Shown here one piece after another: positions 18,390-34,837 of a stretch of 64,000 bases of DNA. Origin of the DNA: Anaerolineae bacterium (GTDB lineage Bacteria; Chloroflexota; Anaerolineae; UBA3071); contig JARYMM010000001.1 of assembly GCA_029907105.1 (NCBI GenBank), forward strand, positions 1 through 64,000, in the 5' to 3' direction. A program made the position numbers and the translations under genes. The notes below the pieces were generated by a model, which worked only from the letters and a program-made list of their open reading frames with translations, was not told the origin of the DNA and did no database searches. The stretch's first letter is position 1. Each line of letters opens with the position of its first letter.

Positions 18390-19196
18390 ATGGCAAACAA
18401 AGCACGCTTCATTGTTGGAGTGACCCTGGTGCTGGCCGTGCTCGGTGTGGTCAGCCTGACCACCTGCACGCGGGAGAAGCCGGCGCCAACGCCGCGGCCC
18501 ACCTGGGTGCCGCCCACGGCCACTCCTGTGCTCACCATGCCGGGGCTGACGCCGGGGGCCACGGTGATCAGTGTGGAGGAAACCCCCAGCGGCGCCGGGC
18601 CTGGGTTGACCTCTGTTCCTGGACCCACGGCCACGCCGATAGCACCGCCCTCGCCCACTCCGGTCTTGCCGACCCCGGTGCGGCCCACGCCGGTGCCCGT
18701 AGGCCCGACGTTCACCTACATTGTCGCCCCGGGCGATACGCTCTACTCCATCGCCCGGCGGTACGATACCACGGTGGACGTGTTGGTGAGTCTGAACAGC
18801 CTGACCAGCGCCGATGACATCAAGGTGGGACAGCAATTGCGGATCCCCGGCACCGGCCCCACTCCTGCGGCCACGGAAGCGCCCGCGGTCACCGTGCATG
18901 TCGTGCAGCGAGGCGAGACGCTCTACTCCATCGCTGTGCGCTACGGCGTGCCGATGCAGGATATCATGGCCGCCAACGGCATCACAAACCCCGATCGCAT
19001 CCGCGCCGGACAGGAGTTGCGGATTCCCGGCGTCGTTCAGCCAACGCCTACCCCGCGCACCCATGTGGTGCAACGGGGCGAAACGTTGCTGGCCATCGCC
19101 TTGCGCTACGGCGTGACCATGCAGGAGCTGCAAGCGGCCAACGGCATCAGCGATCCTGACCTCATCAAGGTGGGCCAGGTCTTGATCATCCCCTGA
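18390..19196 (+). CDS. Lipoprotein with three LysM domains
   Basis: 268 residues. The signal peptide ends in VSLTTC, followed by a 75-residue Pro/Thr linker and three LysM peptidoglycan-binding modules (about residues 109-150, 168-212, 226-268). Each has the YxIxxGDTLxxIA pattern: YIVAPGDTLYSIARRY, VVQRGETLYSIAVRY and VVQRGETLLAIALRY. No catalytic domain is present, so it is probably an anchoring or adaptor protein at the cell surface. ATG with AGGAGGTG about 6 nt upstream. The 179 bp before it contain no clear promoter. Confidence 0.88.
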   Translation: MANKARFIVGVTLVLAVLGVVSLTTCTREKPAPTPRPTWVPPTATPVLTMPGLTPGATVISVEETPSGAGPGLTSVPGPTATPIAPPSPTPVLPTPVRPTPVPVGPTFTYIVAPGDTLYSIARRYDTTVDVLVSLNSLTSADDIKVGQQLRIPGTGPTPAATEAPAVTVHVVQRGETLYSIAVRYGVPMQDIMAANGITNPDRIRAGQELRIPGVVQPTPTPRTHVVQRGETLLAIALRYGVTMQELQAANGISDPDLIKVGQVLIIP

Positions 19197-29253: not shown

Positions 29254-30933
29254 CTACATCCTCTCCGGCGCGCTCACGCCCATCAGCCCCAGCACGCGGG
29301 CCAGCGTGATCTTGCTCGCCTCCACCAGCTTCAGCCGGGCCTTGGTAAGTTCCTCATCGGCGGGATCGCTGGAAACGACGCGGCAATCGCGGTAGAAGGC
29401 GTGAAAAGTGGCCGCCAGGTCCTGGGCGTAGTGCGGCAGGTGATGGGGGGCCAGATTGCGGGCCGCCATCTCCACGATCTCCGGCAACTCCAGCATCTTG
29501 CGGATCAGGGTCAGTTCCGAGGGGTGGTTGAGCAGGCTAACGTCGCCGTCGGCATACCGCTCCGCCGTCCATCCCTGCTCGGCGGCATGGCGCAGGATGC
29601 TGGCGATGCGAGCATGGGCGTACTGCACGTAGTAGACCGGGTTCTCCTGTGATTGCTCCCGCGCCAGCGTCAGATCAAAGTCCATCTGGCTGTCAATGGC
29701 GTTGGCCAGCAGGAAGAAGCGCACGGCGTCGGGGCCAACGTCGTCCAGCACCTCGCTCAGGCGCACCATCGTGCCGGCCCGCTTGGAGAGCCGCACGTCT
29801 TCGCCTGCTTCCTTCAGTGTCACGAGCTGGTAGATGAGCAGCGTGAGCCGCTCCGGGTCCAACCCTAGCGCCCGCATCATGGCCTTCATGCGCGGCACGT
29901 GCCCCTGGTGATCCGCCCCCCAGACGTCAATGACCCAGTCGAAGCCGCGGGTGATGAACTTGTCATAGTGGTAGGCGATGTCGGAGGCGAAGTAGCCCGG
30001 TTCGCCGGTGGAGCGGATGAGCACCTCGTCCTTGTCGCCGCCCAACTCGGCGGCTTTGAACCACACCGCCCCTTCCCGCAGCTCCAGGTGATCCCCCTGG
30101 CGCAACAGGCTCATCACGTGGTCGAAGGTTCCATCGGTGTACAGGGAGCGTTCGGAGAACCAGTGGTCATAGATGATGCCCAGCCGTTCGCAGTCGGCGC
30201 GCACGCTGCCCAGAGCCTTTTCCCGGATTCCCAGGTCGGCCAGCGCCTGCACTGCCTCTTCGTAATCCATGCGCAGGTACTTGTCGCCTGCCATAGCGGC
30301 GATCTCCTGCGCCCAATCCACGATGTACTGGCCGCGATAGCCATTTTCGGGGAGCTCCGCCTCGCGGCCCAGGGCCTGGGCGTAGCGGGCGTAGAGGCTG
30401 CGGCCGAAGAGCTGAATCTGCGTGCCAGCGTCGTTGACGTAGTACTCCCGCTGCACCTGGTAGCCTGCGGCGGCCAGCACGTTGGCCAGGGTGTCGCCGA
30501 TGACTACATTACGCCCGAAGCCGACGTGCAGGGGGCCGGTGGGGTTGGCGCTGCCGTATTCCACCTGTACGCGCCGGCCCTGGCCGATATCCACGTTGCC
30601 CCAGCGCTCGCCGGCAGCGCGGATGGCCTCCACCTGCCGCGCCAGCCAGCCGGCGTCCAGCGTGAAGTTGATGAAGCCGGGATGGGCGATGTCCACCAGG
30701 CCGATAAAATCGGCCTTGGGCAGCCGCTTGACGATGGCGGCGGCGATGTCCATGGGCGACTTGCGGGCCAGGCGAGCCGATTGCAGGGCGATGTTGGTGC
30801 TGTAATCGCCATAGGCCGCCTGCTTGGGCCGTTCCACCGTCACCGGCGGCGATTCGTACTTCGGCAGATCGCCCTTGCGCTGTGCCTTCTTGATCGCTTT
30901 CTCGATGAGCGTGGTGAGTTCGTCTTTGATCAT
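29254..30933 (-). CDS. argS: Arginyl-tRNA synthetase
   Basis: 559 residues, normal length. Domains: N-terminal Arg-S additional domain (1-90), class I catalytic core and C-terminal DALR anticodon-binding domain (about 440-559). The active site reads NPTGPLHVGFGRNVVIGD: the last His of the usual HVGH signature is Phe139, an odd substitution. The KMSKS-equivalent loop is DVRLSKRAGTMV. ATG at 30933; immediately upstream lies degenerate toxin-antitoxin sequence and no clear promoter. The 164 bp downstream of its stop hold nothing I recognise. Confidence 0.92.
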   Translation of the reverse strand: MIKDELTTLIEKAIKKAQRKGDLPKYESPPVTVERPKQAAYGDYSTNIALQSARLARKSPMDIAAAIVKRLPKADFIGLVDIAHPGFINFTLDAGWLARQVEAIRAAGERWGNVDIGQGRRVQVEYGSANPTGPLHVGFGRNVVIGDTLANVLAAAGYQVQREYYVNDAGTQIQLFGRSLYARYAQALGREAELPENGYRGQYIVDWAQEIAAMAGDKYLRMDYEEAVQALADLGIREKALGSVRADCERLGIIYDHWFSERSLYTDGTFDHVMSLLRQGDHLELREGAVWFKAAELGGDKDEVLIRSTGEPGYFASDIAYHYDKFITRGFDWVIDVWGADHQGHVPRMKAMMRALGLDPERLTLLIYQLVTLKEAGEDVRLSKRAGTMVRLSEVLDDVGPDAVRFFLLANAIDSQMDFDLTLAREQSQENPVYYVQYAHARIASILRHAAEQGWTAERYADGDVSLLNHPSELTLIRKMLELPEIVEMAARNLAPHHLPHYAQDLAATFHAFYRDCRVVSSDPADEELTKARLKLVEASKITLARVLGLMGVSAPERM

Positions 30934-30944
30934 GCTGAATTACC

Positions 30945-31015
30945 CCGTGGATTTCCGTGGCCTTGGCCTGATAAGGCGTGATCTTGCCCTGACGTTCCAA
31001 CTCGGAGTAAGTCAT
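30945..31015 (-). pseudogene. HEPN-type gene, 5' remnant
   Basis: An ATG at 31015 opens MTYSELERQGKITPYQAK, which resembles the start of HEPN proteins that accompany minimal nucleotidyltransferases (a short helix, then a basic Pro-containing turn). After about 24 codons it runs into the argS leader, so only the beginning remains. It follows the nucleotidyltransferase remnant in the usual order. Confidence 0.45.
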
Positions 31016-31025
31016 CTTCCTGGCC

Positions 31026-31187
31026 TATCAGCATTATCTTAGGATCAGCCCAGACGTTGCTCAGAAAGGAATCCCCTTGTCGTAGTTTGCTGGCAGCTTC
31101 TTCCCATCCATAGACCATGTAGTTCGTCTCTCGTCCCAATGTCTCCTCCAGCCGTGAAACCACTGAGGCCAGTTGTATGAGATCCAC
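31026..31187 (-). pseudogene. Nucleotidyltransferase (MNT) antitoxin, 3' remnant
   Basis: About 54 codons from 31187 read RLEETLGRETNYMVYGWEEA, then GDSFLSNVWADPKIMLIG, which matches the C-terminal part of MNT-type nucleotidyltransferases. The catalytic GSxxxG/DxD half is absent. The upstream boundary is the polA 3'-end copy at 31197. With the adjoining HEPN remnant this is a dead toxin-antitoxin pair. Confidence 0.55.
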
Positions 31188-31196
31188 CTCCTTAAA

Positions 31197-31326
31197 GCGG
31201 TTCCATCTCCAGCCAATTCTCCCCCACCTTTAGGTCCACCTTCAGCGGCGCATCCAGCTTGAAGGCCTCCTCCATCAGCCGCTTGACCAGCGGGGCGACG
31301 GTGGCCAGCAGGCCGGGCAGTTCTAC
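31197..31326 (-). repeat. Detached copy of the polA 3' end
   Basis: About 115 bp match the 3' end of polA (32014-32128) with two or three mismatches and one 12-bp insertion. It still encodes the polymerase C-terminus (KRLMEEAFKLDAPLKV, ending WLEMEPL and a stop) but is separated from polA by the toxin-antitoxin pair. The left edge abuts the nucleotidyltransferase remnant and the right edge meets the PIN stop codon. Confidence 0.92.
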
Positions 31327-31739
31327 TTGTACGGCAATCCTTGCAATGTGACCTCTTCCCTGATAGTCTCAAACTCCGGATCTTTGTGTACCAACATGCC
31401 GTCCCTTACCTTGGCCAACGCCGCGATCCAGGAATCGGCGAAAGAAATGCGATGCTGGGCTTTGAGCTCAGCAGCTATCTCACCGGTACGCTCATCAGAC
31501 TCGACGCGCTGTAATGGGAGTTGCTTGAGCGTTTCGATCCACCGCTGAGCTTCCCCTTCCCCTCGCTCTTGGAGGTAGATGTAGTGCAACTCCATCCAGG
31601 AGGCGAACGATACGAGTACTATCTCTCCTCTCCTCGCCCGGTGCAACAGTTCAACGATGACCTCAGCGCCTTCCTCGTCATCAGTGTAAGCGAGCAGGGC
31701 TGAGGTGTCAAGAACGAAGGGCTTGTGGTCATCGTTCAC
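31323..31739 (-). CDS. PIN-domain toxin (VapC-like)
   Basis: 138 residues, a single PIN domain. The acidic metal-binding residues are visible: VLDTSALLAY near the N-terminus, WMELHYIY in the middle, SFADSWIAALA and HKDPEFE. VapC toxins are ribonucleases that cut tRNA or rRNA. The upstream antitoxin gene overlaps this start by 11 bp. The stop (31323-31325) lies at the first base of the detached polA 3' end. Confidence 0.88.
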   Translation of the reverse strand: MNDDHKPFVLDTSALLAYTDDEEGAEVIVELLHRARRGEIVLVSFASWMELHYIYLQERGEGEAQRWIETLKQLPLQRVESDERTGEIAAELKAQHRISFADSWIAALAKVRDGMLVHKDPEFETIREEVTLQGLPYK

Positions 31740-31980
31740 GTTTGCGCTCCTCCGCCCGATATTCGATCAGTTTCTCCCGCAAGCATAGCCCTTTCGTAGA
31801 CCCCCGAAAGGCCTCAATCGGATCCAGTGTTGGGACCTCGTTCACTCCGGTATCCCAATTCTCGTCAGGTAAGAAGGTCACCACCACGGGCACCCGCTTT
31901 TTGAAAGGAACGAGCGTCAGGAGCGTCACTTTTTCTCCATCGAAGATTCCTTTAACGGCCAATATCTGTGAATGTGCCAT
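31729..31980 (-). CDS. Antitoxin for the PIN toxin
   Basis: 83 residues. The beginning (ILAVKGIFDGEKVTLL, later VPVVVTFLPDE) resembles the short beta-hairpin antitoxins of the AF2212/DUF104-like type that precede VapC genes; the C-terminal half is charged and helical (REKLIEYRAEERKRER) and probably wraps the toxin. The start is ATG 31980 with GGAGG upstream, 27 bp after the polA stop, so the pair could be cotranscribed with polA. Confidence 0.75.
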   Translation of the reverse strand: MAHSQILAVKGIFDGEKVTLLTLVPFKKRVPVVVTFLPDENWDTGVNEVPTLDPIEAFRGSTKGLCLREKLIEYRAEERKRER

Positions 31981-32006
31981 CGTTTTTCCTCCGTGACATA
32001 ATTCAA

Positions 32007-34757
32007 CTAGCAGGGTTCCATCTCCAGCCAATTCTCCCCCACCTTTAGCTCCACCTTCAGCGGCGCATCCAGCTTGAAGGCCTCCTCCATCAGCCGCTTG
32101 GCCAGCGGGGCGACGGCGGGCAGTTCCTCATTGGGCACCTCCAGCACCAGTTCGTCGTGCACCTGCAAGATCATGCGGCTGTGCAGGCCGCGCTCCTGCA
32201 GCGCCTGGTGCAGGCGGATCATGGCAATCTTAATGATGTCGGCGGCCGTGCCCTGAATGGGCATGTTGATCGCTGCCCGTTCGGCGGCCTGGCGCACGTT
32301 GTTGTGGGCCTTGCTGCGCAGGCCGAGTTCCGGGAAGTAGCGCCGCCGTCCCAACAGCGTTTCCACGTACCCTTGCTGGCGCGCCTGCGCTCGCGTGCGG
32401 TCCACGTACTCTTTCACCTTCGGGTAGGTGGCGAAGTAGGTGCGGATGAACTGCGTCGCCTCCTCCTGGGACATGCCCGTCTGCTGTGACAGCCCATAGG
32501 GGCCCTGGCCGTACATGATGCCGAAGTTGACGCCTTTGGCAATGCGGCGCATCTCCGGCGTCACCTGGTCCAGCGGCACGCCGAGCACGGCGGCGGCAGT
32601 GCTGGCGTGGATGTCCTCGCCGCGGCGAAAGGCCGCCAGCAACCCCGGGTCCTGCGAGATGTGGGCCATGACGCGCAGCTCCACCTGCGAGTAGTCAGCG
32701 GACAGGAGCTTCCAACCCGGCTGAGCTACGAATGCTCGCCGGATCTGCCGTCCCAGCTCTGTGCGGATGGGGATGTTCTGCAGGTTGGGGTTCGACGAGG
32801 AAAGTCGCCCGGTGACCGTCCCTGTCTGGTTATAGGAGGTGTGCACCCGCCCCGTGCGCGGATTGACCAACTCCACCAGGGCATCCACGTAGGTGGACTT
32901 GAGCTTGGATAGCTCTCGCTGCTCCAGGAGGAGGTCAATGACCGGATGTTTCCCCCGCAGCCCCTGCAGCACGTTCGCTGACGTGGAGTAATGCCCTGAA
33001 CTGGTCTTCGGCACCCCCTGACGAGGCAGTTGTAGCCTGTCGAAGAGGGCTTCGGAAAGCTGCTGCGTGGAGTTGATGTTGAAGGGATAGCCAACCTGGG
33101 CATGAATCTCCTTTTCCAACTCAACCAGCCGTGCCGCCAGCGTCTTCGACATTTGTTGCAGGTAGCGCACGTCCAGGGCCACGCCGGCCTGCTGCATAGC
33201 TACCAGTACCGGCACCAGCGGCATCTCCACCTCCTGGAAGAGGCGCAGCACCCCCCTGGCCTCCAGTTCCGGACGCAACACTCCCACCAGCCGCCAGGTC
33301 ATGTCCACATCGGCAGCGGCATAGGAGGCAGCTTTGCCCAGAGGCACCTGGGCCATGGTGATCTGCCTGCTGCCCGTGCCGATCAGTTGGCTGATGGAAG
33401 TCATCTCCGCGCCCAGGCGGGCGAAGGCCAGGTTCTTGAGCCCCAGGTTGCGGCTGGCCGGGTCGAGCAGCCATTCGGCGATCATGGTGTCAAACAATTC
33501 TCCCTGCACGGTGACGCCGTAGCGGGCCAGCACGGTCAGGTCGTACTCGCCGTTATGTGCCGCCTTGGGCATGGAGGCATCCGCCAGCAGCGGCTTGAGC
33601 CGGGCCAGCACCACCTCCAGCGGCAACTGCTCTGCCCCGGCGTGGCCCAGAGGGATGTAGGCGGCCTGCCCCTCGCCCCAGGCCAGGGCCAATCCTACCA
33701 GGTCGGCGAGCATGGGGTCGGTGCTGGTGGTTTCCACGTCGAAGGCGACCAGCTTGCTGGCCTGCAACAGGCGAAGCTGTTCGTCCAGTTCAGCCTGGGT
33801 AGTGATGACTTGATATTGGGTACCGGATATTGGAGCTCTCTGCGCTTCGGCGGCCTCGGCAAACAGGGGCAGTTGCTCCCCTTGTGTCGGGGGTGCCGGC
33901 GGAGTCAGCCGCTCCAGCAGGGTGCGGAACTCCAGCTCGCGGAAAAGCTCGGCCACCCGCTGGCGGTCGAACTCTTTCACACGGCAGCTTTCCAGGTCGA
34001 GGTCAATGTTCACATCTCGGACGATGGACGCCAGTTGTTTGGACAGCAAGGCCAGATCCCTGTTCCCCTCCAGGGCGCTGCGGGCGCGGCCCGTGATCTC
34101 GTCCAGGTGCTGATAGATCCCCTCCACGCTGCCGTAGGTCTGCAACAACTCCGTAGCGGTCTTCTCTCCCACGCCTCGCACGCCAGGGATGTTGTCGGAT
34201 TTGTCGCCGGTGAGAGCTTTGTAGTCAATGAGTTGTTGTGGCCGCAGGCCATAGCGGGCCTGGATCCCTGCCTCGTCGTAGACGACGGTATCGCTGAAGC
34301 TGCGGCGAGAGGTGAGCACGCGGGTGTGGCGGTCAACGAGCTGGAAGGCGTCGGTATCGCCGGTGACCAGCAGGGTCTCCACGCCACGCGCCGCGGCCTG
34401 CCGGCTGAGGGTGCCCAGCACGTCGTCGGCCTCGTAGCCTTCTACCTCGAAGATGGGGATGTTGAACGCCTCTACCACCTGGCGAATGCGGGCCATCTGC
34501 GTGCGCAGCTCGTCGGGCATGGCGGCTCGATGGGCCTTGTATTCTGGATACTGTTCGTGGCGGAACGTGCGGCCCACATCAAAGGCCACAGCGATGTAAT
34601 CGGGCTTTTCGTCGCGCAGCACATTGAGCAGCATGGAGGTGAAGCCGAAGACCGCGTTGGTCAGTTCGCCCTGGCTTGTGGCCAGGGTGGCGGGCAGGGC
34701 ATGGAAGGCTCGATAGGCCAGGCTATGACCGTCAATGAGCACCAGTTTCTTGGACAT
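32007..34757 (-). CDS. polA: DNA polymerase I
   Basis: 916 residues in the standard order: 5'-3' exonuclease (1-290, LIDGHSLAYRAFHALP, VAFDVGRTFRHE, VTGDTDAFQLV), 3'-5' exonuclease (about 335-510) and polymerase (530-916). In the proofreading domain the metal ligands look intact (FDVETTSTDP, AHNGEYDL, YAAADVD). The polymerase motifs are present (DYSQVELRVMAH, RRIAKGVNFGIMYG, VHDELVLEVP). The end of the gene (32014-32128) is duplicated at 31197-31326; the present C-terminus ends MEPC, the detached copy MEPL. Confidence 0.95.
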   Translation of the reverse strand: MSKKLVLIDGHSLAYRAFHALPATLATSQGELTNAVFGFTSMLLNVLRDEKPDYIAVAFDVGRTFRHEQYPEYKAHRAAMPDELRTQMARIRQVVEAFNIPIFEVEGYEADDVLGTLSRQAAARGVETLLVTGDTDAFQLVDRHTRVLTSRRSFSDTVVYDEAGIQARYGLRPQQLIDYKALTGDKSDNIPGVRGVGEKTATELLQTYGSVEGIYQHLDEITGRARSALEGNRDLALLSKQLASIVRDVNIDLDLESCRVKEFDRQRVAELFRELEFRTLLERLTPPAPPTQGEQLPLFAEAAEAQRAPISGTQYQVITTQAELDEQLRLLQASKLVAFDVETTSTDPMLADLVGLALAWGEGQAAYIPLGHAGAEQLPLEVVLARLKPLLADASMPKAAHNGEYDLTVLARYGVTVQGELFDTMIAEWLLDPASRNLGLKNLAFARLGAEMTSISQLIGTGSRQITMAQVPLGKAASYAAADVDMTWRLVGVLRPELEARGVLRLFQEVEMPLVPVLVAMQQAGVALDVRYLQQMSKTLAARLVELEKEIHAQVGYPFNINSTQQLSEALFDRLQLPRQGVPKTSSGHYSTSANVLQGLRGKHPVIDLLLEQRELSKLKSTYVDALVELVNPRTGRVHTSYNQTGTVTGRLSSSNPNLQNIPIRTELGRQIRRAFVAQPGWKLLSADYSQVELRVMAHISQDPGLLAAFRRGEDIHASTAAAVLGVPLDQVTPEMRRIAKGVNFGIMYGQGPYGLSQQTGMSQEEATQFIRTYFATYPKVKEYVDRTRAQARQQGYVETLLGRRRYFPELGLRSKAHNNVRQAAERAAINMPIQGTAADIIKIAMIRLHQALQERGLHSRMILQVHDELVLEVPNEELPAVAPLAKRLMEEAFKLDAPLKVELKVGENWLEMEPC
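32014..32128 (-). repeat. polA 3' end, in-gene copy of the flanking repeat
   Basis: This is the functional copy of the repeat whose detached partner lies at 31197-31326. Together they bracket the PIN toxin-antitoxin pair as direct repeats about 815 bp apart. Confidence 0.9.
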
Positions 34758-34770
34758 GGAACGCCTCCGG

Positions 34771-34837
34771 CTTAAACCTCAAACATCAAACTTCAAAGCA
34801 GAAGCCAGGGTTTGAAGTTTGGAGTTTGAGGTTTGAG
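34771..34837. repeat. Heptamer array in inverted halves (CTCAAAC / GTTTGAG)
   Basis: Left: CTTAAAC, CTCAAAC, ATCAAAC, TTCAAAG (34771-34798). Right: GTTTGAA, GTTTGGA, GTTTGAG, GTTTGAG (34810-34837). The halves are reverse complements and can form a stem of more than 20 bp. It sits between the divergent polA and SnoaL-like genes. Confidence 0.9.

Follow-up and report, generated by a model that had tools for sequence, protein, structure and literature searches.

A PIN toxin–antitoxin pair between two copies of the polA 3' end in an Anaerolineae genome, with similar arrangements at other genes

Two copies of the 3' end of polA, the gene for DNA polymerase I, bracket a PIN toxin–antitoxin (TA) pair in the 64-kb stretch of Anaerolineae DNA analysed here (the window), and because similar events are found at other genes in related bacteria, the arrangement suggests that TA pairs insert at gene ends without an enzyme of their own for insertion. 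For the polA case itself, we consider it probable that the TA module was acquired horizontally and inserted in the last polA codons in an integrase-free manner, by an event of the kind known as 'insertion with long target duplication'. In what would have been a single event, a two-gene module encoding an antitoxin and a PIN RNase toxin, arriving by horizontal transfer, would have entered the last codons of polA with no integrase, leaving polA complete with a slightly rewritten end and the TA pair 23 nt downstream in the same direction, while the original 110-nt polA end would have been cut off on the far side, next to what is left of an older TA pair and to argS. At the molecular level, the mechanism that we infer would have the present polA end either be brought in together with the cassette, a very close strain being the donor, or be copied with errors during insertion.

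The repeat on which this reading is built comprises 110 nt at the polA 3' end, which align ungapped and with four mismatches (96.4% identity) to a detached block on the same strand (Table 1). In a self-BLAST that covered all 64 kb of the window, this pair has E = 9e-46 and outranks by a wide margin the sole other spaced direct repeat of at least 35 nt, which lies at 18897-19149 and consists of two 88-nt copies that are 76% alike and 165 nt apart; a chance origin of the polA-end repeat is excluded. The region of polA and the TA pair is single-copy within its own genome. The repeat block ends 5 nt before the polA stop codon, the last codon and the stop of polA lying outside it, and the detached copy, reading ...TVAPLVKRLMEEAFKLDAPLKVDLKVGENWLEMEPL* with a stop of its own, is a genuine end of polA. 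Upstream of the ungapped detached block lies a further stretch of 10 nt that matches polA, GAACTGCCCG, the first G of which is the last base of the toxin stop codon. The earlier note had rightly seen that the polA end is present twice, while its figures of 115 bp with two or three mismatches give way to those above; the 12-bp indel that it described arises under gapped alignment only and is accounted for by the position of GAACTGCCCG, 5 nt off the main block. A separate feature of the region is a 27-nt inverted repeat (89%) at 34771-34837 of the window, just upstream of the polA start.

Table 1. Features of the polA-argS region of the window and the closest bracketed toxin homologues
Feature	Position	Strand	Remarks
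argS, conserved downstream neighbour of polA in the class	29254..30933	(-)	Neighbourhood comparison
Remnant of an older MNT/HEPN toxin–antitoxin pair, 242 nt	30948..31189	(-)	MNT gene end and HEPN gene start; both open in G001 (L032)
Detached polA 3' end copy	31199..31308	(-)	Ancestral states; own TAA after; joined to old downstream region
Right-hand junction, 10-nt match GAACTGCCCG to polA	31314..31323	(-)	5 nt between match and detached block
PIN-domain (VapC-like) toxin, 138 aa	31323..31739	(-)	PF01850, E=6e-21; GTG start overlaps antitoxin
Antitoxin (predicted), 84 aa	31729..31983	(-)	ATG start 23 nt after polA stop; GGAGG before start
Repeat copy within polA	32014..32123	(-)	Derived residues A and E; V and D in 12/12 relatives compared
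polA (DNA polymerase I), complete, 916 aa	32007..34757	(-)	Expected Pfam domains
Toxin homologue in G022			Epimerase end, 130 nt
Toxin homologue in G186			59 nt of gene end, several copies
Toxin homologue in G238			Nucleotidyltransferase end, 69 nt
Toxin homologue in G354			Epimerase end

Two genes only, the predicted antitoxin and the PIN toxin, lie between the polA-end copies, both in the same direction as polA. That they sit exactly between the copies, with the toxin end meeting the detached one, had been noted before and is confirmed here, as is the lack of a visible integrase: no recombinase gene is found in or beside the 0.8-kb element. Acidic residues D11, E50, D102 and D120 of the toxin are invariant in 10 homologues and, by its PIN fold and these catalytic acidic residues, the cassette is predicted to be a PIN toxin–antitoxin module of VapBC type. 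It resembles VapBC in that a PIN toxin with conserved acidic residues follows a small overlapping antitoxin gene, and differs from it in that the antitoxin matches no known family in Pfam or NCBIfam and the toxin scores below the NCBIfam VapC cut-off. The GC content of the cassette is 53.5%, against 64-65% in polA and argS, and its GC3 is 0.60-0.66, against 0.82-0.86 in those two genes; this foreign composition of the interval shows that it is an insertion.

At least 14 relatives of the class have polA and argS side by side, with a gap of 7-170 nt in about 10 of them and of up to about 1 kb in further ones. A comparison of this junction with relatives that lack the pair, as the earlier note had proposed, finds the two genes adjacent and a single polA end, the relatives in question being of other species than that of the window. 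Since argS lies directly 3' of polA in about 10 class relatives, the TA pair and the second polA end are additions. In G001, the nearest relative compared (same family, polA 83% identical in amino acids), the gene order is polA, a RelB-like ORF, other sequence, MNT (nucleotidyltransferase), HEPN and argS, and a 242-nt remnant of the MNT/HEPN pair persists in the window between the detached polA end, which it directly abuts, and argS. With MNT/HEPN in G001 and in the window, the PIN pair in the window, a PIN gene in G055 and a DUF2283/DUF433 protein in G020 all found at the polA-argS junction, TA-type genes have therefore been taken in there more than once. No polA-end copy was detected at this junction in G055 or G020.

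These observations bear on local duplication, the alternative offered in the earlier note, in which slippage or unequal crossing over first duplicated the polA end in tandem and a TA pair came to lie between the copies later, or template switching during replication made both together. The two copies are close (96%), as such a process would have them, and the Ku family has no match in the organism's own genome (93% complete), which leaves replication-based or microhomology-based processes; Ku-dependent end joining was set aside on the same ground. Local duplication is nevertheless disfavoured by the foreign interval, which marks an insertion, and by the relatives examined, in none of which a tandem polA-end duplication without a TA pair was seen, and in its two-step form two events would have to coincide exactly at many unrelated genes. 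We regard it as improbable.

The age of the two polA ends was polarised by aligning both window tails with those of polA from 12 relatives. V (in APLVK) and D (in KVD) are present in the detached copy, as in all 12 relatives, where the functional polA has A and E; a third difference between the copies (T/A) points in the same direction less firmly, so that the firmly polarisable substitutions number two. Because the relatives agree with the detached copy at both, it is thus the old polA end, still on its old downstream region, and the present gene end is the newer sequence. Together with the polA-argS adjacency and the foreign GC content, the ancestral state of the detached copy supports the proposal of the earlier note that an element entered the end of polA and closed the reading frame with new sequence. 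The copies are 96% alike while either is about 81% identical to the nearest relative, so any donor of a polA end would have been a very close strain; a detached copy derived from another polA lineage, which the earlier note had named as evidence against its proposal, is at odds with these values. The functional polA copy has changed at two sites and the non-coding one at none, a pattern that would fit plain duplication poorly and the import of a diverged end better. From the polarity, the cassette seems to have brought the new polA end with it.

An import of this sort could also be achieved by homologous integration (RecA-type, Campbell-like), the incoming DNA being a circle or fragment with the TA pair and the polA end of a close strain; we hold this to be possible, if rather unlikely. 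One crossover where the homology begins would produce the order donor end, TA pair, recipient end, and the direct repeats would also allow excision of the cassette and its onward movement by ordinary recombination. At both firm differences the gene shows the derived state, which would be the donor's, and the detached copy the ancestral one; the right-hand junction holds the 10-nt stretch identical to polA, and 96% identity fits a conspecific donor. Homologous integration would explain the arrival of the new polA end with the cassette. Against this, the donor must already have had the polA-TA junction, which places the origin one step back, the firm substitutions are two only, and at a radical-SAM gene in the same genome the copies are identical (over the last ~85 coding nt), so that no diverged donor is needed.

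We return to the preferred reading, integrase-free insertion with long target duplication, and to the same anatomy at other genes. A search for TA cassettes with gene-end copies in other genomes, also suggested in the earlier note, reveals that the pattern recurs at unrelated genes: copies of neighbouring gene ends, 60-213 nt long, flank DUF433/DUF5615, BrnT/BrnA, TumA/TumE and other PIN pairs, and the target genes (polA, an NDP-sugar epimerase gene, the radical-SAM gene and a CODH-like gene) are unrelated to one another. Gene ends may recur as targets in that a long duplication reaching the stop codon would leave the host gene intact.

The repeat scan of the own genome covered about 0.8 Mb of 3.78 Mb, the window included, and the 739 kb that were scanned blind contain TA pairs between repeats at three further places. 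A DUF433/DUF5615 pair lies between 3' ends of the radical-SAM gene, a Phd/PIN pair lies at an RNase J-like gene, where the copy is internal and not from the very end, and a UPF0175/PIN pair lies at an intergenic repeat. One orthologue of the radical-SAM gene (L213, G048:C344, 747-1495) has a TumA/TumE-like pair directly behind it with no gene-end copy; the second orthologue is situated close to the end of its contig. G063 has a BrnT/BrnA pair flanked by 72-nt ends of a gene that we take, by recognition of its sequence, to be the CODH-like one. Elsewhere in G063 (L128, G063:C225, 9220-11296), the start rather than the end of a lipoprotein gene is present three times, two of the copies flanking a RelE-type toxin/HTH pair.

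The closest homologues of the window toxin in the class (50-55% identity) stand beside gene-end duplications in G022, G186, G238 and G354 (Table 1); these four lie mostly in epimerase neighbourhoods, and may reflect shared ancestry rather than independent events. The most elaborate is an array in G354 (L114, G354:C452, 2521-6000), in which three TA modules, with two copies of the epimerase 3' end between them, stand behind an intact epimerase gene, in the order epimerase, PIN TA, epimerase end, DUF433/DUF5615-type genes (so called from sequence resemblance and not from a Pfam run), epimerase end and a TA pair of the window's family. Both detached epimerase ends have a common tail, RAVQ(S/A)AE*, that is absent from the present gene end, a difference that amounts to the same rewriting of final codons as at polA. 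The same contig also carries a TumA/TumE pair between 118-nt repeats (92%). In G186 (L112, G186:C45, 29-5156), several interleaved repeat families surround TA-like small genes, and among them one gene end (..ALANELGIEVYS..) is present four times, in full or in part. Repeats in L134, L156, L158, L160, L163, L164 and L170 were discounted, being of linker, dispersed, low-complexity or protein type.

Across these cases, one can also weigh whether an integrase acting in trans inserted the cassette site-specifically at the end of polA, in the way that integrative elements enter tRNA, tmRNA or protein gene ends; this appears very unlikely. The polarity is right, for a newcomer that supplies the gene end and leaves the old end at its far side is the product of such integration. 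However, no recombinase gene is present in or beside the element, the comparable targets are unrelated genes with neither a shared site nor a constant core or repeat length, and the toxin has no match among viral contigs and phages and one weak match only among plasmids. The likeness to tRNA and tmRNA integrases drawn in the earlier note is thus unsupported, as an integrase is absent and the insertions have no site in common. The rows of small, often TA, modules with repeats between them in G354 likewise resemble integron cassette arrays, from which they differ in that the repeats are host-gene ends and no integrase is seen there.

The association between TA modules and bracketing repeats can be gauged from counts. 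In the own genome, about 3 of 12 TA loci are bracketed against 3 of about 120 others (Fisher p ~0.01), these counts being approximate, with the ~12 TA loci among 142 small ORFs estimated from Pfam counts; bracketed non-TA genes are also present. Among PIN loci, four of the five with at least 50% identity to the window toxin are bracketed and only 2 of 47 below 50%, on which basis a general bracketing tendency of PIN loci was rejected. The figures support an association that is real, not universal, and a modest enrichment.

Insertion with long target duplication of restriction–modification systems was reportedly treated by Nobusato et al. in 2000 and Furuta et al. in 2010. In the parts of the literature covered, it is described for restriction–modification systems with duplications of about 100 bp (PMC3874152; PMC3031569) and, as far as those accounts extend, it shares with the present case a small addictive unit, no linked mobile element and variable direct repeats of about 100 bp that stem from the target. 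The present case differs in that the cargo is a toxin–antitoxin pair, the repeats are mostly host-gene 3' ends, insertion is repeated at one gene to give an array and the last codons of the host can be rewritten. We would accordingly place it closest to this known process, as a TA version that operates at gene ends. In Microcystis aeruginosa, a ParE/ParD-like module behind the orthocaspase gene MaOC1 is fenced by 152-bp direct repeats (PMC7935541); there too a TA pair lies downstream of a gene and between direct repeats, but those repeats are identical and intergenic, contain inverted repeats and are not described as gene-end copies. A literature search of partial coverage returned no description of such an arrangement for TA modules at gene ends.

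A broader and quite speculative proposal would extend these observations to TA modules of many unrelated families in Anaerolineae-type Chloroflexota. Such modules might spread as cassettes without an integrase, copies of host-gene 3' ends serving them as homology arms that can stand in for one another, and might insert again and again behind the same genes until arrays build up; at each insertion the last codons of the gene would be replaced and its former end would remain as a fossil. The structures reported here bear on how chromosomal toxin–antitoxin pairs enter genomes without a mobile element, and they form a readable record of old gene end, cassette and new gene end from which the mode of entry is testable by strain comparison. 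They further show that essential genes such as polA tolerate insertion at their tails and are hit there repeatedly, and they suggest that long target duplication is not confined to restriction–modification systems.
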